DNA from: Donghicola mangrovi
Lineage (GTDB): Bacteria > Pseudomonadota > Alphaproteobacteria > Rhodobacterales > Rhodobacteraceae
Length of the DNA: 64,000 bases
Reading direction: 5' to 3'
Assembly (NCBI RefSeq): GCF_013377535.1
Contig: NZ_JABCJE010000007.1
Coordinates: forward strand, 62,001 to 126,000
Part shown: piece after piece, positions 32,008-56,917 of the stretch
How the letters are laid out: each line of letters starts with the position of its first letter
Position numbering within the stretch: the first letter of the stretch is position 1
Position numbers and translations under genes: made by a program
Notes under the pieces: generated by a model
What the model was told of the DNA's origin: nothing
The model's input: the letters and a program-made list of their open reading frames with translations, nothing else
Databases searched by the model: none

Positions 32008-32035
32008 CCCAACCGGACGAAGGGAGGAGAAAGAG

Positions 32036-33124: not shown

Positions 33125-33136
33125 GGAGCGGGAAAG

Positions 33137-34212
<1,076 letters not shown>

Positions 34213-34213
<1 letters not shown>

Positions 34214-35082: not shown

Positions 35083-35086
35083 TCCA

Positions 35087-35938
<852 letters not shown>

Positions 35939-35962
35939 CCCCCGAAGAAAGGAGACCATACA

Positions 35963-36235
35963 ATGGCTTGGATGGCTTGGACGTGGCAAACCGCCGCCTT
36001 CTTCGGGATCATCGCCGCACTGCTGATCACCTTTACAGTGCTGGCCATCAAATTCCCCGAGACGCCCCGCACGGGCGTCCTGCGGATCGAGACGACGCGT
36101 GGGGACCGCTTGTTCATCACGCTACTGGGCTCGGCCTTCATCAACCTCGCTTGGCTGGGGTTGGTGGGCGAAAACCAGCCCTACGCGCTGGGTGTTTGCC
36201 TTGTGTATGCCTTTGCGGTCTTCCGCTGGGTCTAA
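35963..36235 (+). CDS. DUF2160 small membrane protein of the glycerol transporter operon
   Basis: A 90-residue protein with two or three membrane segments (FFGIIAALLITFTVLAIKF; LFITLLGSAFINLAWLGLV; AYALGVCLVYAFAVFRWV-like end). DUF2160 members occur almost only between the permease and binding-protein genes of GlpSTPQV-type operons, sometimes called glpU. A role in assembling or regulating the importer is plausible but unproven. GAAAGGAG precedes the ATG. Confidence 0.85.
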   Translation: MAWMAWTWQTAAFFGIIAALLITFTVLAIKFPETPRTGVLRIETTRGDRLFITLLGSAFINLAWLGLVGENQPYALGVCLVYAFAVFRWV

Positions 36236-36247
36236 TGGCTGACACCT

Positions 36248-36269
36248 GCCAGCGGCAACGACCGCTGGC
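36248..36269 (+). other. Intra-operon stem-loop before glpV
   Basis: GCCAGCGG-CAACGA-CCGCTGGC, a perfect 8-bp stem without a U-tract, 12 bases after the DUF2160 stop and 36 bases before glpV. It probably marks mRNA processing or stabilises the binding-protein segment of the transcript. Confidence 0.6.
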
Positions 36270-36304
36270 CCATCAGTAGAAACGGTTCAATTAGGGAGGA
36301 AACT

Positions 36305-38026
36305 ATGAACCCGTTTTTCAAATCCACCACCGCACTGGGGATCGCTCTGACCCTGCTGTCCGGCCCCGCATTCGCGGACATGGACGCAGCGAAGAAATTC
36401 CTGGACGAGGAAATCGGTGATCTGTCCGCGCTGAGCCGCGCCGATCAAGAAGCCGAAATGCAGTGGTTCGTCGATGCCGCGCAGCCGTTCGCCGGCATGG
36501 AGATCAAAGTCGTCTCCGAGACCATCACCACCCACGAATACGAATCCAAGGTTCTGGCGCCCGCCTTTACCGCGATCACCGGTATCAAGGTCACCCACGA
36601 CCTGATCGGCGAAGGTGACGTGGTCGAGAAGCTGCAGACCCAGATGCAGTCCGGCCAGAACATCTATGACGGCTACATCAACGACTCTGACCTGATCGGT
36701 ACCCACTGGCGTTACCAGCAGGCCCGCAACCTGACCGACTGGATGGCAGGCGAAGGCGCTGACGTGACCAACCCCGGTCTGGACATCGACGATTTCGTCG
36801 GCAAGCAGTTCACCACCGGCCCCGATGGCAAACTGTACCAGCTGCCCGACCAGCAGTTCGCGAACCTCTATTGGTTCCGCTACGACTGGTTCAACGACGA
36901 AAAGACCAAAGCGGACTTCAAAGAAAAGTACGGCTACGATCTGGGCGTTCCGGTCAACTGGTCGGCCTATGAGGACATCGCCGAATTCTTTACCGGCCGC
37001 GACATGTCCTATGCGGGTGGCCCCGAAAAGGTCTATGGCAACATGGACTACGGCAAGAAAGACCCGAGCCTTGGCTGGCGCTACACCGATGCGTGGATGT
37101 CGATGGCTGGCATGGGCGACAAGGGCGAACCCAACGGTCTGCCCGTCGATGAATGGGGTATCCGCGTCAACGAAAACAGCCAGCCCGTCGGTTCCTGCGT
37201 GGCCCGTGGCGGCGCAACCAACGACGCGGCAGCCGTTTACGCTGTGACCAAAGCGATCGAATGGCTCCAGAAATACTCGCCGCCCGCAGCCGCAGGCATG
37301 ACCTTTGGCGAGGCCGGTCCCGTTCCCGCACAGGGCGAGATCGCGCAGCAGATGTTCTGGTACACCGCCTTCACCGCCGACATGGTCAAAGAGGGCCTGC
37401 CCGTCATGAACGAAGACGGCACCCCCAAGTGGCGCATGGCTCCCAGCCCGCACGGCGTGTACTGGGAAGAAGGCATGAAGGTTGGCTATCAGGACGCCGG
37501 TTCCTGGACCCTGATGCAGTCGACCCCCGTGGATGCTGCCAAGGCAGCATGGCTCTATGCGCAGTTCGTCACCTCCAAAACTGTGGACGTGAAGAAATCG
37601 CACGTCGGTCTGACTTTCATCCGCGAATCCACCATTCAGCACCCCTCGTTCACCGAGCGCGCGCCGAAACTGGGTGGTCTGGTGGAATTCTACCGCTCGC
37701 CCGCACGGGTCCAGTGGTCGCCCACCGGTACCAACGTTCCTGACTACCCCAAGCTGGCTCAGCTGTGGTGGCAGAACATCGGCGACGCAATGTCGGGCGC
37801 CAAGACCCCGCAAGAGGCCTTGGATGCGCTCTGCGCCGATCAGGAAAAAGTGCTGGAGCGTCTGGAGCGCGCAGGCGTTCAGGGCGACATCGGTCCCAAG
37901 CTGAACGAAGAGCAGGACCCCGAGTACTGGCTGTCGCAGCCGGGCTCGCCCAAGGCCAAGCTCGAGAACGAGCGTGAAGAGCCCAAGACCGTCAGCTACG
38001 ACGATCTGATCGCAAGCTGGAAGTAA
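36305..38026 (+). CDS. glpV: Glycerol ABC transporter substrate-binding protein GlpV
   Basis: A 573-residue periplasmic binding protein with a Sec signal peptide (LGIALTLLSGPAFA, cleaved near residue 24). It is longer than typical sugar-binding proteins, as is usual for GlpV. Landmarks are SETITTHEYESKVLAPAF and IYDGYINDSDLIGTHWRYQ. It captures glycerol for GlpPQ. It is flanked by two stem-loops that could raise its mRNA level relative to the permeases. Confidence 0.92.
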   Translation: MNPFFKSTTALGIALTLLSGPAFADMDAAKKFLDEEIGDLSALSRADQEAEMQWFVDAAQPFAGMEIKVVSETITTHEYESKVLAPAFTAITGIKVTHDLIGEGDVVEKLQTQMQSGQNIYDGYINDSDLIGTHWRYQQARNLTDWMAGEGADVTNPGLDIDDFVGKQFTTGPDGKLYQLPDQQFANLYWFRYDWFNDEKTKADFKEKYGYDLGVPVNWSAYEDIAEFFTGRDMSYAGGPEKVYGNMDYGKKDPSLGWRYTDAWMSMAGMGDKGEPNGLPVDEWGIRVNENSQPVGSCVARGGATNDAAAVYAVTKAIEWLQKYSPPAAAGMTFGEAGPVPAQGEIAQQMFWYTAFTADMVKEGLPVMNEDGTPKWRMAPSPHGVYWEEGMKVGYQDAGSWTLMQSTPVDAAKAAWLYAQFVTSKTVDVKKSHVGLTFIRESTIQHPSFTERAPKLGGLVEFYRSPARVQWSPTGTNVPDYPKLAQLWWQNIGDAMSGAKTPQEALDALCADQEKVLERLERAGVQGDIGPKLNEEQDPEYWLSQPGSPKAKLENEREEPKTVSYDDLIASWK

Positions 38027-38036
38027 TTTCCTCCCC

Positions 38037-38062
38037 GGGCGGGGCCGCATTTGGCCCCGCCC
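38037..38062 (+). terminator. Strong hairpin between glpV and glpK
   Basis: GGGCGGGGCC-GCATTT-GGCCCCGCCC, a perfect 10-bp stem 10 bases after the glpV stop. The following T-stretch (GCATTTTTC) is 12 bases away, so it may stop part of the transcription or protect the upstream mRNA. Confidence 0.6.
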
Positions 38063-38135
38063 AACCCGTTTGCATTTTTCCTAATATTTCGAGACAGTTC
38101 CCACGGGGAAACTTCCGCGCCAGAGGAGGGTTGCG

Positions 38136-39623
38136 ATGACTTATATTCTCGCCATCGATCAGGGGACCACGTCCAGCAGAGCCATCCTGTTTGACAGCGA
38201 AATGAAGCTTCGCGCGACAGCCCAAGAGGAATTCCCCCAGCATTTTCCGAAATCGGGCTGGGTCGAACATGATCCTGCCGACATCTGGTCCACCACCGCC
38301 GGAACCGCGCGAGAAGTGATCGAGCGCGCAGGTATCAGCGCCACCCAGATCGCCGCCATCGGGATCACCAACCAGCGCGAAACCACGCTGGTCTGGGACA
38401 AGACCACCGGCCAGCCCGTTTATAACGCCATCGTCTGGCAGGACCGCCGCACCGCCGACTATTGCCGCGAGCTGCGCGACGCCGGCCACGAAGAGATGTT
38501 CACCGACCGCACCGGCCTGCTGCTGGACCCCTATTTCTCGGGGACCAAGCTGAAGTGGATTCTGGATAACGTCGACGGGGCCCGTGACCGCGCCCGCGCG
38601 GGCGAGCTGCTGTTCGGCACCGTCGATTGTTACCTGATCTGGAAGATGACCGGCGGCAAATCCCACGTGACAGATGCCACCAACGCCGCCCGCACCCTGT
38701 TGTACGATATCCGCAAGGGCCGCTGGTCGCAGACCATTTGCGATCTGATGGACATCCCCATGCAGATGCTGCCCGAGGTCCGCGATTGCGCCAGCGATTT
38801 CGGTATGACCCGCGCCGATCTGTTCAGCTGCGAGATCCCGATCCTCGGGGTGGCGGGGGACCAGCAGGCGGCGACCGTGGGGCAGGCGTGCTTCCAGCCG
38901 GGGATGATGAAGTCCACCTATGGCACCGGTTGCTTTGCCCTGCTGAATACCGGCGACACGCCGGTCCGCTCGCAGAACCGTCTGCTGACCACCATCGCCT
39001 ATCAGCTGGACGGCAAGCCGACCTATGCGCTGGAAGGCTCGATCTTTATCGCGGGGGCGGTGGTGCAGTGGCTGCGCGACGGGCTGAAGATCATCCGCAA
39101 TGCCGCCGAAACCCAACCCTTGGCCGAGCAAGCCGATCCCCAGCAGGACCTGATCCTTGTGCCCGCGTTTGTGGGCCTTGGGGCGCCCTACTGGAACGCG
39201 GAATGCCGCGGCGCGATCTATGGGCTGACCCGTGGTTCTGGCCCCGCCGAATTCGCCAAGGCCGCGCTAGAGAGCGTCGGCTTCCAGACCCGCGACCTGC
39301 TAGAGGCGATGACCGCCGATTGGCAGGGCCACGAAGGGGCAGGCACCCTGCGCGTCGATGGCGGCATGAGCGCCAGCGACTGGGCCATGCAGTTCCTGTC
39401 GGACATCATCGGTGCGCCGGTGGACCGCCCGACTGTGCTGGAAACCACCGCGCTGGGGGCCGCTTGGCTGGCCGGGATGCGGGCAGGGGTCTACCCCGCC
39501 ATGGAGGACTTCGCGAAAACATGGGCGGTCGAGCGCAGCTTTGCCCCCGCGATGGACGAGGCCACCCGCGAAACGAAATACGCCGCGTGGAAGCGCGCCG
39601 TTCAGGCCACGATGAGCGTCTGA
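38136..39623 (+). CDS. glpK: Glycerol kinase
   Basis: A 495-residue FGGY-family kinase that phosphorylates incoming glycerol to glycerol-3-phosphate, the substrate of GlpD and probable inducer of GlpR. The N-terminus [13 protein letters not shown] binds phosphate, [14 protein letters not shown] is the glycerol-site segment, and [21 protein letters not shown] is in the C-terminal domain. Its length is standard. GAGGAGGG precedes the ATG. Its stop codon overlaps the start of the next gene. Confidence 0.96.
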
Positions 39624-44306: not shown

Positions 44307-45239
44307 TTAATCGCCGCCGTTCATGCGCGTCGGATGGGCCTTGGCGGTTTCCAGCAGGATCGAGACGAACGCCCGCTGCTCGGCCGAGGTCATGGTCTGA
44401 TCCCGCATCGACACGCCGACGGGGCCCCCCAGCAAGTCGCCCTCTAACTGAAGGGTGGCGAGCGTGCCTGCCTCAAGCTCCGCGCCGACCACCCCGTGGG
44501 AAATGAACCAGATCACGTCGGACTGCTGCACCACGCGGCGCCCAAAGGCGAGCGAGACGTTCTCGAATTTCGGGGTCACGTTGGTCAGGCCGATGGAGTG
44601 CAGATAGGACCGCACCGAAGAGGCGATCACCGCGCCCGACGGGGGCAACATCAGGGGGTAATCCCCCAGCTCCCGTAGGTCCCAATCGCGGCGGGTCAGG
44701 GGGTGGCCAGGGCGCACAACGGGGACCACCTTTTCGGAATAGAGCTGGCGAAAGGTCAGCCCCTCAACCGCGCCAGCGGGGGGCATCCGGCCGACGATCA
44801 TGTCCAAAGCGCCTTCGCGCAGTTGGGACAGCAGCATCCAGTTTGGGCCGGTGGTGACGCGCAGCAGGCATTCGGGGTGGATTTCCGCCAGACGCAGCGC
44901 GGCTTCGGGCAGCAAAAAGGTTGCGGCGGTTGGCAGGGCACCGACAGACAGGCGGGACGGGGCACGAGGGGCCTCTCGGACCAGATCCTGCGCGCGCTCC
45001 AGATCAATCATCGCGGCGCCCGCGTGCTGCTGGAACAGCTTGCCCGCAGTGGTCAGCGCCAGCCTGCGCCCGCTGCGGTCAAATAGGGGAACCCCTAGAA
45101 TATCCTCTAACTCCTTGATCGTCTTGGAGGCCGCGGGCTGACTGACGTGCAGCGTGGTTGCCGCCGCCGACAGGCTGCCAAGGCGCGCGGTTTCCAGAAA
45201 GCAGTGGATGTGGCGCATCCGGATGTGTGGGTCGATCAT
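44307..45239 (-). CDS. pcaQ: LysR-type activator of protocatechuate degradation
   Basis: A 310-residue LysR regulator with the PcaQ-type start MIDPHIRMRHIHCFLE, a helix-turn-helix at about residues 25-45 (SAAATTLHVSQPAASKTIKE) and a full effector domain. In Agrobacterium and Sinorhizobium PcaQ activates the divergent pcaDCHGB operon in response to beta-carboxy-cis,cis-muconate and carboxymuconolactone. It is divergent from pcaD here, with a matching operator in between. Confidence 0.93.
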   Translation of the reverse strand: MIDPHIRMRHIHCFLETARLGSLSAAATTLHVSQPAASKTIKELEDILGVPLFDRSGRRLALTTAGKLFQQHAGAAMIDLERAQDLVREAPRAPSRLSVGALPTAATFLLPEAALRLAEIHPECLLRVTTGPNWMLLSQLREGALDMIVGRMPPAGAVEGLTFRQLYSEKVVPVVRPGHPLTRRDWDLRELGDYPLMLPPSGAVIASSVRSYLHSIGLTNVTPKFENVSLAFGRRVVQQSDVIWFISHGVVGAELEAGTLATLQLEGDLLGGPVGVSMRDQTMTSAEQRAFVSILLETAKAHPTRMNGGD

Positions 45240-45241
45240 TT

Positions 45242-45259
45242 CATAACTCTGGGGTTATG
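45242..45259 (+). promoter_or_regulatory. PcaQ operator
   Basis: CATAACTCTGGGGTTATG, an inverted repeat with 6-bp arms. It matches the described rhizobial PcaQ box ATAACC-N4-GGTTAA closely (ATAACT-CTGG-GGTTAT) and lies 3 bases from the pcaQ start and 69 bases before pcaD. Confidence 0.75.
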
Positions 45260-45327: not shown

Positions 45328-46113
45328 ATGCAGACAGTTTTGTTCGATCAGATGATGCTTCATTTCCGCGACGAAGGTCCGCGGGATGGCCGCGTGGTGA
45401 TGTTTGGCAACTCGCTCGGGACCGATCTGCGGGTCTGGGACCTGCTGCTGCCCCTGCTGCCCCAAGGTCTGCGTATCGTCCGCTTTGACAAGCCCGGTCA
45501 CGGCCTGAGCGATTGCCCCGAGGCGCCCTATGCCATGGACGAACTGGTGCGCGACGCCGAAAATCTGGCCGAGCATCTGGGGCTGAAGGACATTACCTTT
45601 GTCGGTCTGTCGATCGGGGGTCTGATCGGGCAGGGCTTTGCGGCCAAGCGTCCCGATCTGGTCAAAGCGTTGGTCCTGATGGATACCGCAGCCCAGATCG
45701 GCACCAATGACATGTGGAACACCCGCGTGAATGCGGTCCGCAAGGGCGGCATTGAATCGCTGGCAGACCCTATTCTGGAACGCTGGTTCGCCCCGACCTA
45801 CCGCAACGGCCAGCCCGCGCAGATGGCCGCGTGGCGCAACATGCTGACCCGCACCCCCGCCGAGGGGTACATCGGCTGCTGTCAGGCCATCGCTGCGGCT
45901 GACCTGACCGAAAGCACCCGCGCCCTGACCCTGCCCGTGATGGCGATGGCGGGCGATCAGGACGGCAGCACGCCCCCCGCGCTGGTTCAGGCGACGGCGG
46001 AACTGTGCAACGCCGCGTTCCACATCATCGAAGACGCGGGCCATTTGCCCTGCGTCGAGCAGCCCGAAGTGGTTGCCAAACTGATTACTGAATTTCTGGA
46101 GGCCACCGCATAA
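45328..46113 (+). CDS. pcaD: 3-oxoadipate enol-lactonase
   Basis: A 261-residue alpha/beta-hydrolase. The nucleophile elbow GLSIGGLIGQ places the catalytic serine at about residue 94, the acid lies in AGDQDGSTPP and the histidine in DAGHLPCVEQPE near the C-terminus. It hydrolyses 3-oxoadipate enol-lactone to 3-oxoadipate. AAGGGAG precedes the ATG. It is the first gene of the operon and its stop overlaps the start of pcaC. Confidence 0.95.
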   Translation: MQTVLFDQMMLHFRDEGPRDGRVVMFGNSLGTDLRVWDLLLPLLPQGLRIVRFDKPGHGLSDCPEAPYAMDELVRDAENLAEHLGLKDITFVGLSIGGLIGQGFAAKRPDLVKALVLMDTAAQIGTNDMWNTRVNAVRKGGIESLADPILERWFAPTYRNGQPAQMAAWRNMLTRTPAEGYIGCCQAIAAADLTESTRALTLPVMAMAGDQDGSTPPALVQATAELCNAAFHIIEDAGHLPCVEQPEVVAKLITEFLEATA

Positions 46114-46499
46114 TGTCTGACCGCTACGACAACGGCATGAAAGTCCGCCGCTCGGTTCTGGGAGACGCCCACGTAGACCGCGCCGAGGCCAACAAAACCG
46201 ATTTCGATCTCGCATTCCAAAGCCTGATCACCGAAAGCGCATGGGGCACCGTCTGGGCCTCGGACGGCATTTCCCGCCGCGAACGCTCGATGATCACGCT
46301 GGCGCTCTTGGCAGCGACCGGCAACTTTGAAGAGATCCCCATGCATATCCGGGCCACTGCCCGTACCGGCGCAAGCAAGCGCGACGTTCTGGAGGCCTTC
46401 CAGCATGTTGCCATCTACGCCGGGGTCCCGCGCGCGAACCATGCCTTGAAATTGGCGAAAGCCACTTATGCCGAAATGGAGGCGGCATCTGATGACTGA
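46113..46499 (+). CDS. pcaC: 4-carboxymuconolactone decarboxylase
   Basis: A 128-residue AhpD-fold protein without the redox cysteines. Characteristic stretches are RRSVLGDAHVDRAEANKTDF, SRRERSMITLALLAATG and the C-terminal HVAIYAGVPRANHALKLAK. It decarboxylates 4-carboxymuconolactone to 3-oxoadipate enol-lactone, the substrate of PcaD. It overlaps pcaD (TAATG) and pcaH. Confidence 0.95.
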   Translation: MSDRYDNGMKVRRSVLGDAHVDRAEANKTDFDLAFQSLITESAWGTVWASDGISRRERSMITLALLAATGNFEEIPMHIRATARTGASKRDVLEAFQHVAIYAGVPRANHALKLAKATYAEMEAASDD

Positions 46500-47220
46500 T
46501 CTAGGCCCGCTTATTCCGCGGAACCGCGAGGCGCACCCGCCTGCGTATGACCCCGCATATAAAACAACTGTTTCCCGTTCCCCGAACCTGCCTTTGCTGT
46601 CGATGGAATCCGGCCTCTCCGAGGAAACCGGCCCCACCTTCGGCCACAACAAGCTGGGTGCACTGGACAACAACCTGATCCTGAACTGGACCAAGGGCGC
46701 AGCCCCCGCTGTGGGCGAACGCATCCTGATGCACGGCCGCGTTCTGGACGAGAACGGCCGCGCCGTTCCCAACACCCTGATCGAGATCTGGCAGGCGAAC
46801 GCCGGTGGCCGTTATCGTCACAAGAAAGACGGCTATCTGGCGCCGCTGGACCCGAACTTTGGCGGCTGTGGCCGGACCATCACCGATGAAAACGGTGGCT
46901 ACCAGTTCCTGACCGTCCGTCCCGGGGCTTATCCCTGGCCGAACCGCGGCAACGACTGGCGTCCGATGCACATCCACATTTCGGTCTACGGTCACAGCTT
47001 TGGCCAGCGCCTGATCACCCAGATGTATTTCGAAGGCGATCCGCTGATCAACCTGTGCCCCATCGCCGCGACCATCAAGAACCGCAGCCAGCTCGACCGT
47101 CTGGTCGCTCCGCTGGACATGAGCGCGTCGCGTCCGCTGGACTTCTTGGCGTACAAGTTTGACATCGTTCTGCGCGGCCGCCGCCAGACCATGTTCGAGA
47201 ACAAGCTGGAGGGTATGTAA
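46492..47220 (+). CDS. pcaH: Protocatechuate 3,4-dioxygenase beta subunit
   Basis: A 242-residue iron-carrying subunit. The iron ligands are visible as Tyr in GGRYRHKK (about residue 105), Tyr in GAYPWPN and the two histidines in RPMHIHISVYG (about 156-158). It opens the protocatechuate ring between the hydroxyl groups, giving 3-carboxy-cis,cis-muconate. GGAGG lies 9 bases before the ATG at 46492, which overlaps the end of pcaC by 8 bases. Confidence 0.96.
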   Translation: MTDLGPLIPRNREAHPPAYDPAYKTTVSRSPNLPLLSMESGLSEETGPTFGHNKLGALDNNLILNWTKGAAPAVGERILMHGRVLDENGRAVPNTLIEIWQANAGGRYRHKKDGYLAPLDPNFGGCGRTITDENGGYQFLTVRPGAYPWPNRGNDWRPMHIHISVYGHSFGQRLITQMYFEGDPLINLCPIAATIKNRSQLDRLVAPLDMSASRPLDFLAYKFDIVLRGRRQTMFENKLEGM

Positions 47221-47221
47221 G

Positions 47222-47821
47222 ATGGTACAAAAGCTGGATTATCTGGTTGAAACCGCTTCGCAAACCGCTGGCCCCTACGTCCATATCGGCCTGATGCCCA
47301 CCTATGCGGGCAACGCTGGCTACTATGACGAAGAGATCGCCACCAGCCCCATCGCCGATGGCGCCAAGGGCGAAGTGATCGAGATCGTGGGTTCCGTGTT
47401 CGACGGCACCGGTTGGGCGCTGCGTGACGCGCTGCTGGAAAGCTGGCAGCCCGACGCGGCTGGCAAGTTCGCCGGCCAAGAGGGCGCAGACCCCGCAGTC
47501 ACCGGCCACTGCCGTTTCGCTGCGGACGCGGACTCGGGCGAGTTCACCCTGCGCACCGTCAAGCCGGGTCAGGTTCCGGCCCGTGGTGGCGGGTTCTCGG
47601 CTCCGCATATCTCGCTGTGGATCTGCGCGCGTGGCATCAACATCGGCCTGCAAACCCGCATCTACTTCGAGGACGAGGACAACAGCACCGATCCGCTGCT
47701 GGCCCGCATCGAACAGCGTCCCCGCGTGGACACGCTGATCGCGAAAAAGACCGCCGACGGCAAATACCGCTTCGACATCCGCCTTCAGGGCGAAGGCGAG
47801 ACGGTTTTCCTCGACATCTAA
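47222..47821 (+). CDS. pcaG: Protocatechuate 3,4-dioxygenase alpha subunit
   Basis: A 199-residue partner of PcaH with the same fold but without the iron ligands. It has TASQTAGPYVHIGLMP at the start and APHISLWICARGINIGLQTR, where the beta-subunit histidines are replaced. GGAGGG at the end of pcaH provides its ribosome site, one base gap from the pcaH stop. A perfect hairpin follows the stop codon. Confidence 0.96.
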   Translation: MVQKLDYLVETASQTAGPYVHIGLMPTYAGNAGYYDEEIATSPIADGAKGEVIEIVGSVFDGTGWALRDALLESWQPDAAGKFAGQEGADPAVTGHCRFAADADSGEFTLRTVKPGQVPARGGGFSAPHISLWICARGINIGLQTRIYFEDEDNSTDPLLARIEQRPRVDTLIAKKTADGKYRFDIRLQGEGETVFLDI

Positions 47822-47872: not shown

Positions 47873-48715
47873 ATGACCAAACCCTGCATTATCTGCGTGG
47901 CCATCACCGGCTCGCTGCCGACCAAAGAGAACAACCCCGCAGTGCCGATCACTGTGGCAGAGCAGATCGAAAGCACTCAGGAAGCTTTCGAGGCTGGCGC
48001 AACCATCGCCCACTGCCACGTGCGTGACGACGAAGGCAAGCCGACCTCGGACCCCGAGCGTTTTGCGCGTCTGAAAGAGGGTCTGGAAAAGCATTGCCCC
48101 GGCATGATCGTGCAGTTGTCGACCGGTGGCCGTTCCGGTGCGGGCCAGACCCGTGGCGGTATGCTGCCCCTGTCGCCCGACATGGCGTCGCTGTCGGTTG
48201 GCTCGAACAACTTCCCCACCCGCGTCTACGAGAACCCGCCGGAACTGGTCGATTGGCTGGCCTCCGAGATGGTGAAATATGGCGTGAAGCCCGAGATCGA
48301 GGCGTTCGACCTGAGCCACATTCTCAAGGCCGCCGACATGTTCAAGAAGGGCCAGATCGCGGAAACCCCCTACGTCCAGTTCGTGATGGGTGTGAAAAAC
48401 GCGATGCCCGTGGACCGCGATGTCTTTGATTACTACATCAAAACTGTGCACCGCCTGTTCGGCGAGGATGCCAACTGGTGCGCCGCCGGTATCGGTGCCC
48501 ACCAGATCACCCTGAACGACTGGGCCGTGTCCTCGGGCGGTCATGCCCGCACTGGTCTGGAAGACAACGTCCGCATCGACCGCGACACACTGGCACCCTC
48601 GAACGCGGCACTGGTGCAGCGCGTGGTTGATCTGTGCGACAAGTACGAGCGCCCCGTTGCCACTTGGCAGCAAGCGCGTGAAATGCTGAACCTCAAGGTC
48701 CCCGCAATCGCATGA
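47873..48715 (+). CDS. Beta-keto acid cleavage enzyme (BKACE, DUF849), probably acting on 3-oxoadipate
   Basis: A 280-residue TIM-barrel enzyme. It opens MTKPCIICVAITGSLPTKEN; the metal-site histidines are in AGATIAHCHVRD (about residues 44-46), and the later acidic metal/substrate segment is in HARTGLEDNVRI. BKACE enzymes condense a beta-keto acid with acetyl-CoA to give a CoA ester plus acetoacetate. Placed between pcaG and pcaB, the likely reaction is 3-oxoadipate plus acetyl-CoA to succinyl-CoA plus acetoacetate. The family contains members with that activity. An ATG at 47858 is an alternative start. Confidence 0.88.
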   Translation: MTKPCIICVAITGSLPTKENNPAVPITVAEQIESTQEAFEAGATIAHCHVRDDEGKPTSDPERFARLKEGLEKHCPGMIVQLSTGGRSGAGQTRGGMLPLSPDMASLSVGSNNFPTRVYENPPELVDWLASEMVKYGVKPEIEAFDLSHILKAADMFKKGQIAETPYVQFVMGVKNAMPVDRDVFDYYIKTVHRLFGEDANWCAAGIGAHQITLNDWAVSSGGHARTGLEDNVRIDRDTLAPSNAALVQRVVDLCDKYERPVATWQQAREMLNLKVPAIA

Positions 48716-50049
48716 CCCCGACCCCTTTGACTGGCGCCGTGATGGCGCCGCTCTATGGCGATATGCAGGCCACCGCCCTTCTGTCAGAAGAGGCGGTCGC
48801 CGCGCATATGGTCGCCTTCGAGATCGCCTTGGCCCGCGCGACCGAGGCTGCTGGCCTGACCGAAACCGGCAGTGCTGACGCAATCGCTGCGGCTCTGGAC
48901 GGGTTCGACGCGGACCTGACCGGATTGGGGCAGGGGACCGCATCCGCTGGTGTGCCCGTGCCTGCGCTGGTCGCGCAACTGCGCGGCGCGTGCGGCGAGG
49001 CGGGGCAGGCTCTGCACTGGGGCGCGACATCCCAAGACGTGGTGGACACCGCGACCGCGATGGCCCTGCGCGATGTGCTGGACCTGTACGCGGGCCGCGT
49101 GTCTGTTCTGATCGACGCGCTTCAGCAGCAGTCCGAAGCATTCGGCGACGTGGTCATGGGCGGGCGCACCCGTTCGCAAGTGGCGACCCCGATCACCTTT
49201 GGCATGCGGATCGCCACTTGGGCCGCGCCGCTGATCGCGCTCGAGGCAGAACTGCCCGCGCTCAAGTCTCGTATCGCACGGGTCCAGTTCGGAGGAGCCG
49301 CAGGCAACAATCTGGCCGTGGCACCCCACGGGGCAGACATCGCCGCGACCTTGGCGTCTGAATTGGGCCTTGGCGCTGCAATTCAGTGGCACGGTGATCG
49401 CAGCGCGGTCATGGCCGTGGGTGCTTGGGTGGGCCGCTTGACCGCAGCTCTGGCCAAGATGGCGGGCGACCTGATCCTGATGGGCCGGTCCGAAGCCGCC
49501 GAGGGCAAGGCAGGCAAGGGCGGCGGATCGTCGACCATGCCGCAAAAATCCAACCCCGTCGCGTCCGAGGCGATCGTTACCCTGAACGCCTATGCCACCG
49601 CGCTGAACCCCATGCTCGCTATGGCGGCCAGCCCCGCAGAAGAGCGGGACGGCGGCCGTTGGGCGATGGAATGGTTCGCCCTGCCGCAAATCCTGATCGC
49701 GGGGGCAGCTGCCCTGCGTCACGGGGCCGATCTGGCCGCGACCCTGCAAGCCTTCCCCGACAACATGGCGCGGATGCTGGACGCAAACGGCGGCGCGATC
49801 ATGTCCGAGGCCGCCAGCTTTGCCCTTGCCGTGCACATGCCGCGGGCCGAGGCGCAGACGCTGGTGAAGGATGCTCTGAAACTGGTGAACGGGCAGGGCA
49901 AAACCCTGACCGAAGCCCTGTCCGAAATCGGGCCCGACGGGATCGACTGGGTGCAAATCCTTGATCCCCGTCAGGCCATCGCGCCGTCGCAGGCGCAGGC
50001 AAAGGCGATCTTTGCCAATCGAACCAACTCTTTGGAGGAGACGAAATGA
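48712..50049 (+). CDS. pcaB: 3-carboxy-cis,cis-muconate cycloisomerase
   Basis: A 445-residue member of the fumarase/aspartase superfamily. The signature loop [17 protein letters not shown] lies at about residues 269-285, and [16 protein letters not shown] holds the general-acid region. It lactonises 3-carboxymuconate to 4-carboxymuconolactone. Its ATG overlaps the stop of the BKACE gene and its stop overlaps scoA (both ATGA). The C-terminal domain is of full length. Confidence 0.95.
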
Positions 50050-50747
50050 ACAAAGTGTATGGCAGCGCGGCCGAGGCCCTTGAGGGTCTTTTGCGCGACG
50101 ACATGCTGATCGCGGCGGGGGGCTTTGGCCTCTGCGGGATTCCCGAACTCTTGATCGATGCGATTGTGGAAAGCGGCGTCAAAGGGCTGACCGTTGCCTC
50201 GAACAACGCCGGTGTGGACGGGTTTGGCCTTGGTAAACTGCTGGATACCCGCCAGATCAAGAAAATGATGAGCTCTTATGTGGGCGAAAACGCGGAATTC
50301 ATGCGTCAGTACCTGTCGGGCGAGCTGGAGCTGGAATTCAACCCGCAGGGCACCTTGGCCGAGCGGATGCGCGCTGGCGGCGCCGGCATCCCCGGTTTCT
50401 ACACCAAAACCGGTGTGGGCACCGTGATTGCCGAAGGCAAAGACGTGAAAATCTTCAACGGTCAGGAATACATCATGGAAGAAGGCATTTTCGCCGATCT
50501 TTCCATCGTGAAAGCCTGGAAAGCGGACGAGACCGGCAACGCGATTTTCCGCAAGACCGCCCGCAACTTCAACCCGCCCGCCGCGATGTGTGGCAAGATC
50601 TGCGTGATGGAGGTCGAGGAAATCGTCCCCGCAGGCAGCCTTGACCCCGACCACATCCACCTGCCCGGCATCTACGTGCACCGCCTGATTCAGGGTGACC
50701 ACGAGAAGCGGATCGAACAGCGCACCGTGCGCAAGAAGGAGGCCTGA
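50046..50747 (+). CDS. scoA: Succinyl-CoA:3-ketoacid CoA-transferase subunit A
   Basis: A 233-residue family I CoA-transferase alpha subunit. The stretches [58 protein letters not shown] and [14 protein letters not shown] match the ScoA (succinyl-CoA:acetoacetate) type more closely than the PcaI type as I recall them. It would activate acetoacetate with succinyl-CoA. GGAGGAGACGAA precedes the ATG, which overlaps pcaB. PcaI remains the alternative name given the operon. Confidence 0.85.
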
Positions 50748-50748
50748 T

Positions 50749-51378
50749 ATGGGTTGGGATCGCAATCAAATGGCCGCCCGTGCGGCGCTGGAGCTGGAAA
50801 ACGGCACCTATGTGAACCTCGGGATCGGCATCCCGACGCTGGTTCCGAACTTCATCCCCGAGGGCGTGCAGGTCGTTCTGCAGTCGGAAAACGGGATGCT
50901 CGGCATGGGCCCGTTCCCCTACGAGGGTGATGAAGACCCCGATCTGATCAACGCGGGCAAGCAGACCATCACCGAACTGCCCGAGACCAGTTATTTCGAT
51001 TCGGCCACCAGCTTTGGCATGATCCGCGGCGGCAAGATCGCAGCGGCGATCCTTGGCGCGATGGAAGTGGCTGAAAACGGCGATCTGGCGAACTGGATGA
51101 TCCCCGGCAAGCTGGTCAAAGGCATGGGCGGCGCGATGGATCTGGTGGCCGGCGTGGGCCGCGTGGTCGTTGTCATGGACCACACCAACAAACACGGCGA
51201 GTCGAAGGTGCTGAAGGCTTGCACTCTGCCCCTGACCGGCAAGTCGGTTGTGGACCGCATCATCACCAACCTCGGTGTTCTGGACGTGGTCGAAGGCGGC
51301 CTGAAGCTGGTCGAACTGGCAGACGGCGTCACCGAAGAGGAACTGCGCGCCGCGACCGAAGCGACGATTGTGAATTAA
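50749..51378 (+). CDS. scoB: Succinyl-CoA:3-ketoacid CoA-transferase subunit B
   Basis: A 209-residue beta subunit carrying the catalytic glutamate in [12 protein letters not shown] (about residue 47). Other ScoB-like stretches are [16 protein letters not shown] near the start and MVAGV-type [19 protein letters not shown]. The ATG at 50749 follows AGGAGG and lies one base past the scoA stop. It is the last gene of the pca operon, followed by a strong terminator. Confidence 0.87.
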
Positions 51379-51406: not shown

Positions 51407-51433
51407 AGGGGGCCTCCGGGCCCCCTCTTTTTT
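51407..51433 (+). terminator. Rho-independent terminator of the pca operon
   Basis: AGGGGGCC-TCCG-GGCCCCCT (51407-51426), then CTTTTTT. It lies between the convergent scoB and DeoR-family genes and may serve the plus strand mainly. Confidence 0.9.
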
Positions 51434-52328
51434 ACTCTTCCTCGTCGGAAGAACCGGAAATGCGGACGGTGCGGGATTTGGCTTTACCGACCTCGGCGAT
51501 GGCGACGTTGATGCCCTTGTCCTGCATACGGCGCAGGTCCTCGGGGGCGATGTTGTCGTCCACGATCACCGCATCGAATTCCGTCAGCGAGGCAAAGCTG
51601 TGCAGTGCGCGGTGGTTGAACTTGGTGTGGTCGGCCAAGAGGATGCGTTTGTCCGCGCATTCCAGCATGGCGCGCTTGGTTTCGACCATCTCGGGCGACT
51701 GGTGATAGACCACGTCATTGGCGATCGCGGACATAGACACGAAGACCGTATCGGCGCGAACCTGCGCGATCTGGCTGCGGGTCATCCGGCCCATAAAGGC
51801 GTTACACCAGTTATAGAATTGCCCGCCCAAAGCGATCAGCGCGATGTCGCGAACCTCTTTCAACTCGTTGATCATCAGCAGCGAATTGGTCAGCACGGTC
51901 AGAGGCGTCTTGCTTTCCAGCAGCTCGACCATCTGCCAGACGGTCGTCGAGTCATCGAGGAAAATCGCCTGACCGGGTTCGACGAACTCCATCGCTTTGG
52001 CGGCGATGGCGCGCTTTTCGGCCACTTGGCGGGACGAGCGGTAGATGTCGCTGCTTTCGATCAGGTTCGTCGGCGCGGCGGACACGATCCCGCGGGTTTT
52101 CCGCAACAGGCCCAGACTGACCAGCTCATCCAGATCGCGGTGGACGGTCATCAGGCTGATGCCGAAACGGTCTGTCAGGTCCTCGATCCGCATGGTGCCT
52201 TCGGCCATCACGGCCTCGGTGATCATCTTGCGGCGCTCCAGCTGACGGGCCTGACGGCTGTCGGCGGGCGTCTTTTCGGCCATCAAACGATCAAAGGCGG
52301 TGTCGGTGCTAGACGGGATCTTGGACAT
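51432..52328 (-). CDS. DeoR-family transcriptional regulator
   Basis: 298 residues. The helix-turn-helix (IEDLTDRFGISLMTVHRDLD) lies at about residues 44-63, preceded by a longer than usual N-terminal tail, then a sugar-phosphate-type effector domain (AIFLDDSTTVWQMVELL; ADHTKFNHRALHSF). The C-terminus is acidic (GSSDEEE). It is convergent with the pca operon and divergent from the RND efflux genes; which, if either, it controls is not clear. The ATG at 52328 follows GAGAAG; the open frame upstream lacks family similarity. Confidence 0.82.
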   Translation of the reverse strand: MSKIPSSTDTAFDRLMAEKTPADSRQARQLERRKMITEAVMAEGTMRIEDLTDRFGISLMTVHRDLDELVSLGLLRKTRGIVSAAPTNLIESSDIYRSSRQVAEKRAIAAKAMEFVEPGQAIFLDDSTTVWQMVELLESKTPLTVLTNSLLMINELKEVRDIALIALGGQFYNWCNAFMGRMTRSQIAQVRADTVFVSMSAIANDVVYHQSPEMVETKRAMLECADKRILLADHTKFNHRALHSFASLTEFDAVIVDDNIAPEDLRRMQDKGINVAIAEVGKAKSRTVRISGSSDEEE

Positions 52329-52604
52329 GGGATGCTTCTCTTGATTAACCCCCATTAGAGCGAAAGTGCAGCTAAGGCAAAGACTGTGGTGCCGGTCCCT
52401 GCTGAAATGCGCAGAAAACCCTGCGCAGATGCAGGGAAGCGGGTGAAAAAGGGGCTTGGTGCGCGTGTTTGCGCTGACATTCCCGTGAACTTTGCAACTG
52501 CAGCATCTACCCGCGACAGAATGCATACTACCTGTACGTAGATAGTTCACGCGCCGCATTCCGTCGCAAACCTTTGATATAAGAAGCCGAGATCGGGTCA
52601 CCTC
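52329..52604. promoter_or_regulatory. Divergent region between the DeoR-family gene and the RND efflux operon
   Basis: 276 bases without a convincing gene. The inverted repeat CTAC-CTGTAC-GTAG (52528-52541) lies 64 bases before the adaptor gene start and is a candidate operator for an unidentified repressor. No TetR-type gene adjoins the pump. Confidence 0.4.
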
Positions 52605-53813
52605 ATGAGAACACTCCCCAATTTTTCCAGACCGCGCAGATTAGCCCTTGGGGCGGCGCTGTTGTTGGCGTGCGCTGCGCCTGCATTTGCCCAGATGGCT
52701 CCGGGTGGGGCCTCCAAAACCAAGGTTGGCGTGATTGAACTGACCGAGGCCAAGGTGCCCTATCAGGTGACGTTGCCGGGACGTGCGGTTGCGTTTGAGC
52801 AGACCGACATCCGCCCCCGCGTCGAAGGCGTGATCGAGGAAATCGTCTATACGCCGGGCGCGCCCTTGCAGGTCGGGGATCTGATGTACCGGATCGAAGG
52901 CGCCTCTTACGAGGCAGAGCTGGCCGCCGCCGAGGCGGCTTTGGCCGGTGCCAAGGCCAGTGTGCAGTCGGCCACGGCCACCGCTGAACGCTATCGCAAA
53001 CTCGACGGGGTGGGGGTGACCCGCGAGGATGTAGAGAGCGCAGAGGTGGCGCTGATGCAGGCCGAGGCTGACCAACGCTCGGCCGAAGCGTCGCTAAAGA
53101 CCGCGCAGCTGAACGTGGACCGTACTGAAATCCGCGCGCCCATTCAGGGTGTGCCCGAAGTGTCGGAATTCTCGGTCGGGGCGCTGGTAACGGCCAACCA
53201 GTCGGACGCGCTGACCACGCTGACCCGCTTGGACCCGATCTATGTAGACCTGACTGAATCCAGCGCGCGCCTGCTGCGCACCCGTGAGCGCATCGCGGAC
53301 GGCCAGCTGAAGATGGGCGACAAACTGGACGTGTCGCTGACGCTGGAAAACGGCCAGAGCTATGACATCAAGGGGTCTCTCGTCAGCCCCGGTCGTCTGG
53401 TGTCCTCGACCACGGGGTCGGTGGATTTCCGGATGCAGTTCGATAACCCCGATAACCTGATCATGCCTGGCATGTTCCTGCGCGCCAACGTGACCGTTGG
53501 TGAGACCGACGCGGTTCTGGTGCCTCAGCGCGCCACCGACCGCAGCGCCACCGGCAAGCTGACCGCCTTTGTCGCCAAGGATGGCAAGGCCCAGCAGGTC
53601 ACGCTGACTTCTGCAGGCACCTACCAGAACGCTTGGGTCGTGACCGATGGTGTTTCGGCGGGCGACATGCTGATCGTGGACGGCCTGAAAAACCTGCGCG
53701 CCGATGCCGAGGTGGAAACCGTTGCCGTGACCATCGACGCGGATGGCGTTGTGACCGATGCGGCGCCGGAAACCTCTGACGCGGCGGCTGAACCCGCCCC
53801 CGCAGCGGAGTAA
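52605..53813 (+). CDS. RND efflux periplasmic adaptor subunit (MexA/AcrA type)
   Basis: 402 residues. An N-terminal signal segment (LALGAALLLACAAPAFAQ) could be cut after AFA or, less likely, processed as a lipoprotein at LLAC. Barrel-sandwich and hairpin domains follow, with the MexA-like start YQVTLPGRAVAFEQTDIRPRVEG split here (QVTLPGRAVAFEQTDIRPR), a coiled hairpin around residues 100-165 and a C-terminal Ala/Glu/Pro-rich tail. It bridges the inner-membrane pump to an outer-membrane channel. The next gene encodes the pump. Confidence 0.92.
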   Translation: MRTLPNFSRPRRLALGAALLLACAAPAFAQMAPGGASKTKVGVIELTEAKVPYQVTLPGRAVAFEQTDIRPRVEGVIEEIVYTPGAPLQVGDLMYRIEGASYEAELAAAEAALAGAKASVQSATATAERYRKLDGVGVTREDVESAEVALMQAEADQRSAEASLKTAQLNVDRTEIRAPIQGVPEVSEFSVGALVTANQSDALTTLTRLDPIYVDLTESSARLLRTRERIADGQLKMGDKLDVSLTLENGQSYDIKGSLVSPGRLVSSTTGSVDFRMQFDNPDNLIMPGMFLRANVTVGETDAVLVPQRATDRSATGKLTAFVAKDGKAQQVTLTSAGTYQNAWVVTDGVSAGDMLIVDGLKNLRADAEVETVAVTIDADGVVTDAAPETSDAAAEPAPAAE

Positions 53814-53818
53814 GCTCT

Positions 53819-56800
53819 TTGGTTAATTTCTTTATTCACCGACCCGTCTTTGCGTGGGTGCTGGCGATTGTGACCATGCTGGCGGGGGCGTTTTCGCTGA
53901 CGCAGCTGCCTGTGTCCCAGTACCCCGACATTGCGCCAACCACCGTCCGCGTCTCGGCCACCTATACCGGTGCCACTGCCGAGGCCGTGCAGAACTCTGT
54001 GACCTCGACGATCGAGGATGCCATGACCGGCATCGACGGTCTGCTTTATATGGTGTCCGATTCCAGTGAGGGGTCATCCAGCATCACGCTGACCTTTGAC
54101 GAAAGCGTCGAAGGTATTGATGCCCAGAACGAGGTCCAGACCAAGGTCCGCCAAGTCGAAAGCCAGCTGCCCGACCGCGTGCAGCAGTCCGGCGTCAGCG
54201 TGCGCCGTTCGACCAGCTCGATCCTGATGGTGGGGGCGCTTGTGTCCACCGATGGCCGCTATAGCGCGGTGCAGCTGGGGGACATTCTGGACCAGACCAT
54301 CAAGGGCCCCGTGCAGCGCGCCGACGGCGTGGGCGGGATCAACGTGTTCGGTTCGGGCTATGCGATGCGCATCTGGCTGGACCCGCTGAAGCTGGCGCAA
54401 TACCAGCTGACGCCCTCGGATATCACCAGTGCTGTGACGGCCCAGAATACCACCGTGTCGGTCGGTAGCCTTGGCACCCAGCCCACCGTTCAGGGCCAGC
54501 AGTTCACCGCCACCATCACCGCCCAAAGCCAGCTGACCAGCGTCGAGGAATTCGAAGCCATCCTGCTGAAAACCGAAGAGGACGGCAGCGCCGTTTATCT
54601 GGGGGATGTCGCGCGGGTCGAGGTCGGTCAGGAAAGCTATGGCGGGGACAGCCGCTTTAGCGGTCTGAACGCCGCCGGTTTCGGTGTGAACCTTGCCACC
54701 GGTGCGAACGCTGTGGACACCGCAGCCGCCGTGCGCGAAGTGCTGACCCAGCTAGAGCCCGCTCTGCCCGAAGGGGTCGAGATCCGCTATGCTTATGACA
54801 CCTCGCCCTTTGTCGAGCTGTCGATCGAGAAGGTCTATCATACCCTGATCGAAGCCGTGGTTCTGGTGTTCCTTGTGATCCTGATCTTCCTGCAGAACTG
54901 GCGTGCGACCATCATTCCGATCATCGCCGTTCCTGTGGTTCTTATGGGGACGTTCGCGATCCTTGCGGCCCTTGGGTTCACGATCAACACGCTGACCATG
55001 TTCGCCATGGTTCTGGCCATCGGCCTCTTGGTGGACGACGCGATTGTGGTCGTGGAGAACGTCGAGCGGGTGATGGATCAGGACAAGCTGGAGCCCTTGC
55101 CCGCCACCGAGCGCAGCATGGGCCAGATCACCGGCGCGCTGATCGGTATCGCGCTGGTTCTGTCGGCGGTGTTCCTGCCGATGGCGTTCTTTGGTGGCTC
55201 GACCGGTGTGATCTATCGCCAGTTCTCGGTCACGATCATCTCGGCGATGGTGCTGTCCGCTGTGGTGGCGCTGATCCTGACGCCTGCTCTGTGCGCCAGC
55301 ATGTTGCGCCGCACCCACGGGGCCGGTATCGCGCCCGCCCGCTGGTTCAACCGCAACTTTGACCGCCTGAACCGTGGTTATGAAAACACCGTGGGCCGCA
55401 TCCTGCGCAAGCCGATCATCATGATCGTCCTGTTGGCCGGGATCGGTGTGGGGGCTTGGCAGATCTACGAACGTCTGTCCTCGTCCTTCTTGCCGACCGA
55501 AGACCAGGGGATGCTGATGACCATGGTCCAGCTGACCGAAGGCTCGACCACGCAGCAAACCCTGTCTGTGGTCCAAGAGATCGAGGATTACCTGCTGACC
55601 GACGAAACCGACACCGTGGAAAGCGTGTTTGCCGCGCTTGGCTTCGGCTTCGGCGGGACGGGGCAGAACAACGCGATGCTGTTCATCAAGCTGCACGACT
55701 TTGACGACCGTGCCGCTGCCGAACAGGCAGCAAGCGCGCTGGCCACCCGTGCCAACATGCGCTTCATGGGGCACCGCGCGGGGCAGATATTCTTTATGCA
55801 GCCGCCCGCAATTCAGGGTCTGGGCAACACCAACGGCTTCTCGATGTACCTCGTGGATAACGGGGGCAACGGGTACGACAGCCTGATCGAGGCTGCTAAC
55901 GAACTGGTCTCCAAGGCAGGAAGCGACAGCCGCCTGACCAACGTCCGCGTGTCTGGCGTCGATCCTGAAAGCGCCCTGCGCATCAACATCGACCAGCAAA
56001 AGGTCGAGGCGTTCGGCGTGTCTCTGTCCGACATCAACTCGATGCTATCGGTGGTGTTCAGCGGCTCCGAGGTCAACGATTTCGTTCTACAGGGCAACCT
56101 GCGCCCCGTGATCGTTCAGGCCGAGGCCGCCAACCGTATGCAGCCCGAAGACATCGAAAGCTGGTACGCCCGCAACGACTCGGGCGAGATGGTGCCGTTC
56201 TCGAGCTTTGTCACCACCGAGTGGGTTTCGGTTCAGCCCAAGCTGTCCCGCTATTCCGGCTCTGACGCGATCGAGATTTCGGGTAGCAACAGCGACACGT
56301 CCTCTTCGGGGGCCGCGATGGACGCGATGGAGGAACTGGCCGCAACCATCGACGGTGGCTACGGCGTGGAATGGACCGGTATCAGCTATCAGGAACGTCA
56401 GTCTGGCGATCAGGCACCGTACCTTTATGCACTTGCCGTGCTGGTGGTGTTCCTGTGCCTTGCCGCCCTGTACGAAAGCTGGACGGTGCCGTTCTCGGTC
56501 ATGCTGGCGGTTCCGGTCGGTGTGCTGGGGGCCTTGGCCGCGGCGTATCTGTTCGGTCAGTCGAACGACGTCTACTTCAAGGTGGGCATCCTGACGACCA
56601 TCGGTCTGGCTGCGAAAAACGCCATTCTGATCGTCGAGTTCGCCAAGGATCTGGAAGCCCAAGGCAAGTCCCTGATCGACGCCACGATGGAGGCCGCGCG
56701 CCTGCGTCTGCGCCCGATCCTGATGACCTCGCTCGCGTTCATGCTGGGGGTTGTGCCCTTGGCGACCGCGACGGGGGCAGGGGCCGCAGCCCAGAACGCC

Positions 56801-56917
56801 ATCGGTATCGGCGTGCTGGGGGGCATGGCCACGGCGACCTTTATCGGCGTGTTCATGGTGCCTGCGTTCTACGTGATCGTCCGTCAGGCCACCCAGCGCC
56901 GTAAAAAAGCCGCCTAA
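53819..56917 (+). CDS. RND efflux transporter, HAE1 (AcrB/MexB) family
   Basis: A 1032-residue inner-membrane proton-driven multidrug pump. It opens VNFFIHRPVFAWVLAI, the usual AcrB start, has the proton-relay aspartates in GLLVDDAIVVVENVERVM (about residues 400-417) and a later lysine-containing segment GLAAKNAILIVEFAKDL. Two large periplasmic loops follow TM1 and TM7. The start codon is TTG at 53819, with GGAG 8 bases upstream inside the end of the adaptor gene; no ATG gives the conserved N-terminus. No outer-membrane factor gene follows. Confidence 0.94.
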   Translation: MVNFFIHRPVFAWVLAIVTMLAGAFSLTQLPVSQYPDIAPTTVRVSATYTGATAEAVQNSVTSTIEDAMTGIDGLLYMVSDSSEGSSSITLTFDESVEGIDAQNEVQTKVRQVESQLPDRVQQSGVSVRRSTSSILMVGALVSTDGRYSAVQLGDILDQTIKGPVQRADGVGGINVFGSGYAMRIWLDPLKLAQYQLTPSDITSAVTAQNTTVSVGSLGTQPTVQGQQFTATITAQSQLTSVEEFEAILLKTEEDGSAVYLGDVARVEVGQESYGGDSRFSGLNAAGFGVNLATGANAVDTAAAVREVLTQLEPALPEGVEIRYAYDTSPFVELSIEKVYHTLIEAVVLVFLVILIFLQNWRATIIPIIAVPVVLMGTFAILAALGFTINTLTMFAMVLAIGLLVDDAIVVVENVERVMDQDKLEPLPATERSMGQITGALIGIALVLSAVFLPMAFFGGSTGVIYRQFSVTIISAMVLSAVVALILTPALCASMLRRTHGAGIAPARWFNRNFDRLNRGYENTVGRILRKPIIMIVLLAGIGVGAWQIYERLSSSFLPTEDQGMLMTMVQLTEGSTTQQTLSVVQEIEDYLLTDETDTVESVFAALGFGFGGTGQNNAMLFIKLHDFDDRAAAEQAASALATRANMRFMGHRAGQIFFMQPPAIQGLGNTNGFSMYLVDNGGNGYDSLIEAANELVSKAGSDSRLTNVRVSGVDPESALRINIDQQKVEAFGVSLSDINSMLSVVFSGSEVNDFVLQGNLRPVIVQAEAANRMQPEDIESWYARNDSGEMVPFSSFVTTEWVSVQPKLSRYSGSDAIEISGSNSDTSSSGAAMDAMEELAATIDGGYGVEWTGISYQERQSGDQAPYLYALAVLVVFLCLAALYESWTVPFSVMLAVPVGVLGALAAAYLFGQSNDVYFKVGILTTIGLAAKNAILIVEFAKDLEAQGKSLIDATMEAARLRLRPILMTSLAFMLGVVPLATATGAGAAAQNAIGIGVLGGMATATFIGVFMVPAFYVIVRQATQRRKKAA

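Follow-up and report, generated by a model that had tools for sequence, protein, structure and literature searches.

How does the catabolism of protocatechuate, an aromatic acid derived from plants, end in a marine-type bacterium whose pca operon encodes the enzymes leading to 3-oxoadipate and no thiolase to complete the route? The question is raised by a 64,000-nucleotide stretch of the Donghicola mangrovi genome (Rhodobacteraceae; RefSeq assembly GCF_013377535.1, contig NZ_JABCJE010000007.1, positions 62,001 to 126,000 of the forward strand), hereafter the window, in which a gene for a beta-keto acid cleavage enzyme (BKACE) lies within the pca operon and genes for a coenzyme A (CoA) transferase close it. 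We consider it very probable that this protocatechuate operon ends through BKACE, the succinyl-CoA:3-ketoacid CoA-transferase ScoAB and a thiolase, bypassing 3-oxoadipyl-CoA.

Open reading frames (ORFs) and profile models give the gene order pcaD-pcaC-pcaH-pcaG-BKACE-pcaB-scoA-scoB, all on the + strand, with the LysR-type regulator gene pcaQ (44307..45239, - strand; TIGR02424, 307 bits, cut-off 303.8) divergent from it. The 3-oxoadipate enol-lactonase gene pcaD (45328..46113) matches TIGR02427 at 307 bits (cut-off 256), and pcaC (46113..46499, 4-carboxymuconolactone decarboxylase), pcaH (about 46492..47220) and pcaG (about 47222..47821, protocatechuate 3,4-dioxygenase alpha) exceed the cut-offs of TIGR02425, TIGR02422 and TIGR02423, the starts of the last two having been picked within their ORFs. 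The BKACE gene, for a predicted 3-oxoadipate:acetyl-CoA acetyltransferase, follows at 47873..48715 in an ORF open from 47858. The next gene (48712..50049) was named pcaB from its operon position and its top models, PRK05975 (290.6 bits, cut-off 371) and TIGR02426 (270.3 bits, cut-off 355.75), both of which it misses while still matching the pcaB family best. The operon closes with scoA (50046..50747) and scoB (about 50749..51378, in an ORF open from 50695; TIGR02428, 329 bits, cut-off 243.55), the start of the latter being an internal ATG picked by the analyst. Four-base overlaps link BKACE to pcaB and pcaB to scoA, and with that ATG a single base separates scoA from scoB; the operon is presumably co-transcribed. 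The complement of a pca operon, pcaHG, pcaB (below its cut-offs), pcaC and pcaD with PcaQ, is thus present, and no thiolase gene lies within it. An original prediction, made from the letters alone, that the operon would hold every gene from protocatechuate to 3-oxoadipate, no thiolase, and a DUF849 protein between pcaG and pcaB is borne out on each point. The nearest named relative, Donghicola eburneus (L011), has the same operon from pcaQ to scoB at 88-99% protein identity, and since the genes have full-length homologues and their order recurs there, and partly in many other loci, chance is not an issue. The D. mangrovi genome also encodes pobA, so that 4-hydroxybenzoate would be able to feed the operon.

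The BKACE belongs to PF05853 and, across its whole length, clears the equivalog model NF053568, "3-oxoadipate:acetyl-CoA acetyltransferase", by 147 bits (497.3 against a cut-off of 350); the two further BKACEs of the genome fail it at 162 and 157 bits. The short name of the model suggests a Cupriavidus necator H16 reference. Membership of this curated family is in keeping with the original proposal that the enzyme would cleave 3-oxoadipate, its predicted substrate. Its solved relatives are 3fa5, 3chv and 3no5. We aligned 83 proteins, comprising the window BKACE, those of 80 comparison loci and two PDB chains; as the loci are at least 78% identical to the window protein, conservation among them is expected. 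Residues H52, H54, R231, E235 and D236 are conserved in this alignment and align with residues of Kce (2y7d) that we take to be its metal-binding and catalytic set. Arg92, Arg122 and Arg239 are likewise invariant in the 83 proteins; Kce has Ala, Asp and Phe at these positions, and neither of the other two BKACEs in the genome carries Arg there. If these three residues line the pocket, they would suggest a positively charged site suited to a dicarboxylate. One of the other two BKACEs adjoins a carnitine 3-dehydrogenase gene (L008:44-2391; 617 bits, cut-off 592), a neighbour that fits cleavage of dehydrocarnitine by that enzyme.

The transferase is of the ScoA type. The top PDB chains for both subunits are ScoA/ScoB and SCOT proteins, and subunit A, which matches TIGR02429, is 66% identical to the ScoA chain of 3cdk and 60% to that of 3rrl, presumably the ScoAB enzymes of B. 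subtilis and H. pylori, against 41-46% identity to PcaI/CatI-type proteins drawn mostly from pcaIJF or cat clusters. In trees it falls on the ScoA side, together with those two enzymes and outside the PcaI/CatI clade (the split stands at 99/99 in a first tree and 100/100 in a rebuilt one), the deepest ScoA forks being poorly resolved. This places the pair outside PcaIJ and agrees with the earlier assignment of subunit A to ScoA and not PcaI. The first tree held 12 of the 19 BKACE-linked scoA genes, the rest being truncated at contig ends or omitted as near-duplicates; the rebuilt tree had 43 rows, with L097 omitted, and misplacement of ScoAB through long branches was rejected, as the PcaI/CatI split still stood in it. 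A putatively AtoD-like Klebsiella plasmid transferase (62% identical) also lies on the ScoA side. In a sample of 248 family genomes (247 genera by the tool's grouping), 44 genomes reach a TIGR02429 score of at least 309.9 bits and the next stands at 267, with the others lower; the operon ScoA, at 231.6 bits, belongs to the low, or ScoA, class. The boundary between the classes was set by the analyst and checked in the tree with one high-scoring gene (L122), which fell in the PcaI clade, and 18 low-scoring genes, which fell on the ScoA side.

The window pair differs from 3cdk and 3rrl in sitting in an aromatic operon beside BKACE, and in having a second copy elsewhere in the genome. This other copy, close to topA and dprA, has a YCII-like gene separating scoA from scoB. 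The two ScoA proteins are one residue apart, and the DNA is 96.3% (scoA) and 97.3% (scoB) identical; the likeness of window positions 50046-51378 to L099:6192-7836 stops outside the genes in the 14 kb compared. D. eburneus has scoAB at the same two places. The four Donghicola ScoA proteins form one clade (100/99), in which the two of D. mangrovi are closest together (97/81 in the first tree, 96/76 in the rebuilt one), and these two copies would thus reflect recent copying or gene conversion across loci. Roseibacterium persicicum similarly has two near-identical scoA copies, behind BKACE (L058, L109) and elsewhere (L110), in one clade (100/98). Such duplicates point to a general ScoAB that may have been recruited to ring cleavage, or to later gene conversion between the two loci. 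Among 18 regions around ScoA-class genes of other genomes, ten have scoA near topA (L104, L106, L107, L108, L112, L113, L115, L116, L117 and L119), four have it behind BKACE with a hydroxyquinol-dioxygenase-like gene (L105, L109, L111 and L118), and four show neither arrangement.

A search for pcaF and pcaIJ through the whole D. mangrovi genome (99.9% complete) returned neither class, in line with what the original prediction implied. No PcaF-class thiolase was found among all 17 candidates scored, the best reaching 408 bits against a cut-off of 597. That cut-off is strict, in that none of 14 control genomes passes it, yet 156 of the 248 family genomes do; of the other 92, some of which may hide a PcaF because at most seven of up to 41 candidates per genome were scored, 78 have best matches at E 1e-100 to 1e-129 and 11 are intermediate (E 1e-150 to 1e-176), and D. 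mangrovi falls in the low group. The best match to the PcaF model is a BktB-type thiolase (L001; NF006552, 652 bits, cut-off 565). Nor was a PcaI-class transferase found in the genome: both of its TIGR02429 matches score about 232 bits. A second thiolase, L002, has an acetyl-CoA C-acetyltransferase model as its best match (PRK05656, 565 bits, below the cut-off of 688) and a neighbour that passes the acetoacetyl-CoA reductase model, and the genome holds two other thiolases. No acetoacetyl-CoA synthetase exceeds its cut-off (best 250 bits against 521), which none of the 14 controls passes either.

According to the route we propose, PcaHG, PcaB, PcaC and PcaD would yield 3-oxoadipate, which BKACE would convert with acetyl-CoA to succinyl-CoA and acetoacetate. 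ScoAB would turn these into succinate and acetoacetyl-CoA; we infer the flux through it, and as it would consume both BKACE products it should pull the BKACE reaction forward. An AtoB/PhaA-like thiolase encoded elsewhere would then cleave acetoacetyl-CoA with CoA to two acetyl-CoA, one of which replaces the molecule spent. The sum, 3-oxoadipate + CoA to succinate + acetyl-CoA, would be the same as that of PcaIJ and PcaF, and the variant would therefore carry no extra cost. It resembles the PcaIJ-PcaF end of the beta-ketoadipate pathway in substrate and net products and differs in that cleavage would precede activation, with acetyl-CoA as primer, and in a genome without PcaI-class and PcaF proteins.

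The neighbourhoods of the closest BKACEs in relatives lend comparative support to this coupling, which had first been read from one operon. In 47 of the 80 loci (78 of which hold at least 300 bp downstream), the 1.5 kb upstream of BKACE contain pcaG or pcaH on the same strand, and in 18 scoA lies directly downstream; these 18 represent 16 genomes, as L033 and L041 come from a single genome and so do L046 and L078. In the window and L011 scoA stands behind pcaB instead. Three of the 18 have pcaG or pcaH directly upstream (L038, L078 and L085). In 14 of the remaining 15, a hydroxyquinol-dioxygenase-like intradiol dioxygenase and an alpha/beta hydrolase are encoded nearby; the closest solved relatives of this dioxygenase are (chloro)hydroxyquinol 1,2-dioxygenases, and it exceeds no NCBIfam cut-off. 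Hydroxyquinol degradation likewise yields 3-oxoadipate, so that the BKACE-scoA pair recurs where another type of ring cleavage would be expected to supply the same substrate.

This second ring-cleavage cluster of roseobacters runs LysR, hydroxyquinol-dioxygenase-like enzyme, small unknown protein, alpha/beta hydrolase, BKACE, scoA, scoB, and adjoins a branched-chain-type ATP-binding cassette (ABC) transporter, as seen gene by gene in L046, L058, L064, L067 and L088. It occurs at L088:5390-10200 and at L033, L041, L046, L058, L061, L064, L066, L067, L068, L073, L076, L077 and L084. At L039:8001-10011 a family III CoA-transferase (PF02515) takes the place expected for ScoAB behind BKACE, possibly a third way of activating acetoacetate or its partner. 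Paracoccus siganidrum (L021:8001-13769) has pcaDCHG-BKACE-pcaB with a true pcaIJF set beginning 2.3 kb behind BKACE and about 0.9 kb behind pcaB, so that both endings lie side by side. In 16 of the 80 loci pobA and pca genes precede BKACE; 15 of these are ordered pcaQ-pobA-pcaCHG-BKACE, which resembles the Roseovarius nubinhibens cluster as described in the available passages of PMC12442348.

The same association appears at the level of whole genomes. A pcaH above cut-off occurs in 153 of the 248 family genomes, and 140 of these 153 also have a BKACE above cut-off (co-occurrence over the 248 genomes, odds ratio 20, p 1.7e-21). PcaI-class proteins are absent from 114 of these 140 genomes and from 6 of the 13 without BKACE (p 0.008), or, at 90% completeness or above, from 105 of 129 and 3 of 10 (p 0.001); these p values are optimistic, as the PcaI-class marker was adopted after a PcaF marker had failed and the genomes are not independent. 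Six of the 114 carry transferases of in-between score (251-261 bits), and counting these as PcaI would give 108 of 140. Forty of the 140 lack both PcaI class and PcaF. A second sample covered 50 genomes of the 80 loci, namely 15 with scoA directly behind BKACE, L011, and 34 whose BKACE belongs to a pca cluster or adjoins one. Every one has at least one PcaI/ScoA-family protein above cut-off. PcaI class and PcaF are both missing from 12, of which four are metagenome bins; the rest include D. eburneus, Loktanella salsilacus, Neptunicoccus sediminis, Wenxinia marina, Paracoccus luteus and P. sphaerophysae. Taken with the gene order, family membership and missing PcaF- and PcaI-class proteins established directly above, the recurring BKACE-ScoAB pair makes the coupling appear well supported by comparison. 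Outside this pattern, the nearly complete genomes G163 and G103 have pcaH and BKACE and nothing that matches ScoA or PcaI strongly, and PcaF is missing from G163 as well; G014, G059 and G246 (at least 90% complete) have pcaH and a PcaF-class thiolase, but neither a BKACE of the window type nor a PcaI-class transferase.

That a pca operon can end in BKACE is already known, and BKACEs acting on 3-oxoadipate have been published. In the accessible passages on Methylobacterium, nearly every strain has DUF849/kce placed, as in the window, between pcaG and pcaB, in an operon where nothing is annotated as pcaI, pcaJ or pcaF (PMC8963497), and kce is proposed to yield succinyl-CoA and acetoacetate (PMC8963497, PMC12379598); transfer of pcaHGB, pcaL and kce, unaccompanied by pcaIJ or pcaF, enables M. 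extorquens PA1 to grow on protocatechuate, at a slower rate than the donor (PMC12379598). These clusters belong to a different order of Alphaproteobacteria, and the same passages describe no ScoAB or later fate of acetoacetate. A beta-ketoadipate-cleaving role for the family was also proposed in a survey of Betaproteobacteria, as far as the available text goes (PMC6449761). In deoxyribonate oxidation by Paraburkholderia bryophila and Pseudomonas simiae a BKACE is likewise the proposed source of acetoacetate; there the substrate is 2-deoxy-3-keto-D-ribonate, the locus tags place BKACE, transferase and thiolase at a distance from one another, and no transferase gene proved important in P. simiae (PMC6365646). 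No paper coupling BKACE to ScoAB in a pca operon was found in the open-licence PubMed Central literature, covered mostly through listings. Nor did we find there any account of the ScoAB half, of how widespread it is in the family, or a reading of the dispensable R. nubinhibens pcaF in these terms.

Several observations weigh against the ending proposed here. Among the 47 loci with pcaG or pcaH upstream, scoA stands directly behind BKACE in only three and behind pcaB in one (L011), and coupling in the rest would therefore need ScoAB from elsewhere; moreover, six of the 114 PcaI-lacking genomes are also without a strong ScoA, so ScoAB is not universal. BKACE shows no anticorrelation with PcaF, being present in 99 of 110 PcaF-positive and 41 of 43 PcaF-negative genomes with pcaH (Fisher p 0.35), possibly because TIGR02430 also catches the phenylacetate thiolase PaaJ. 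The portions available of two reports describe a gene island of Methylobacterium that encodes PcaIJ and PcaF (PMC12542667) and Sulfitobacter D7 using classical enzymes on benzoate (PMC9873259). Lack of a PcaF-family thiolase is also no proof that no cellular thiolase cleaves 3-oxoadipyl-CoA, and the BktB-type enzyme could in principle serve the classical route. In the alternative that builds on such an enzyme, ScoAB would replace PcaIJ, charging 3-oxoadipate from succinyl-CoA for cleavage by a BktB-type or beta-oxidation thiolase, with BKACE as an accessory. A similar model has been published for R. nubinhibens, where, in the passages available, inactivation of the transferase gene "pcaI" abolished growth on 4-hydroxybenzoate and beta-oxidation thiolases were invoked; the transferase, called PcaIJ and located away from the pca cluster, was required, and rose 1.24-/1.64-fold in mRNA and 2.15-/2.66-fold in protein (PMC12442348). 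We nevertheless regard this alternative as unlikely for D. mangrovi, where the transferase is of the ScoA class and near-identical to the topA-linked copy, and a 3-oxoadipate-type BKACE in the operon would be redundant. In R. nubinhibens itself, pcaF and an acyltransferase were singly dispensable, and loss of both still permitted growth, with a reduced final optical density, the text at hand allowing for complementing enzymes or routes (PMC12442348).

The two routes might instead run in parallel or conditionally, BKACE-ScoAB carrying most of the flux while promiscuous transferases sometimes form 3-oxoadipyl-CoA. The PcaI class is present in 26 of the 140 genomes with pcaH and BKACE, a further point against an exclusive BKACE-ScoAB ending since both routes can evidently coexist, and P. 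siganidrum holds the BKACE operon together with pcaIJF; the D. mangrovi genome, however, has no protein of the PcaI or PcaF class, and for it this arrangement seems more doubtful still. We give almost no credence to the idea that BKACE works on another beta-keto acid and sits in the operon incidentally: BKACEs are a functionally mixed family, as the accessible part of PMC4922564 has it, but this one passes the 3-oxoadipate equivalog well over its cut-off, pcaG or pcaH lies directly upstream in the 47 loci, and co-occurrence with pcaH is strong.

Extended beyond this operon, the BKACE-ScoAB-AtoB sequence could be the main end of aromatic-ring degradation in Rhodobacteraceae and the Roseobacter group, for hydroxyquinol-type and protocatechuate-type pathways alike, a generalisation for which belief and doubt seem to us evenly matched. 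It would predict that the R. nubinhibens "PcaIJ" is the topA-linked ScoAB and that an unnoticed BKACE explains the dispensable pcaF; the terms acetoacetate, cleavage enzyme and 3-keto are absent from the main text of PMC12442348.

Further features surround the operon. Between pcaQ and pcaD lies the palindrome ATAACTCTGGGGTTAT (45243..45258), a candidate PcaQ site with two mismatches, on both strands, to ATAACC-N4-GGTTAA, which we take to be the PcaQ consensus. The window holds 22 such sites at up to three mismatches against a shuffle mean of 13.8, and one other place with two, so that position alone speaks for the candidate, which is suggestive. At the operon end, a terminator-like hairpin with a T-run (51407..51426, + strand; an eight-pair stem with seven G-C pairs) begins 28 bases past scoB; it is a pattern match, one of 11 in the region against a shuffle mean of 7.3, and the sole one on the + strand. 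Beyond it (51432-56917) a DeoR-type regulator gene diverges from a probable resistance-nodulation-division efflux pair, the AcrB-type pump being identified by Pfam and its adaptor partner called from sequence alone. At 30367-39623 a glycerol-3-phosphate dehydrogenase-like oxidoreductase dependent on flavin adenine dinucleotide, an ABC permease and an FGGY kinase form what looks like an operon for uptake and use of glycerol or glycerol phosphate. In three Paracoccus loci (L031, L065 and L072) BKACE lies beside the pca cluster on the opposite strand; their PcaG, PcaH and PcaC are 80-89% identical to those of the window, against about 45-70% for PcaG and PcaH of most other loci (D. eburneus aside), and the window operon therefore looks like a mosaic.

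The beta-ketoadipate pathway is a textbook route, and it is common practice to score genomes for it by its last two enzymes. If the ending proposed here is correct, such scoring would misjudge a large share of an abundant marine family, in which 114 of the 153 pcaH-positive genomes have BKACE and no PcaI class. It would also offer a testable explanation of why pcaF could be dispensed with in the mutant study of 2025. The intermediate would be acetoacetate instead of 3-oxoadipyl-CoA, so that engineers would face a different compound between ring cleavage and central metabolism, and aromatic carbon would feed directly into the acetoacetyl-CoA pool, the source of polyhydroxybutyrate.

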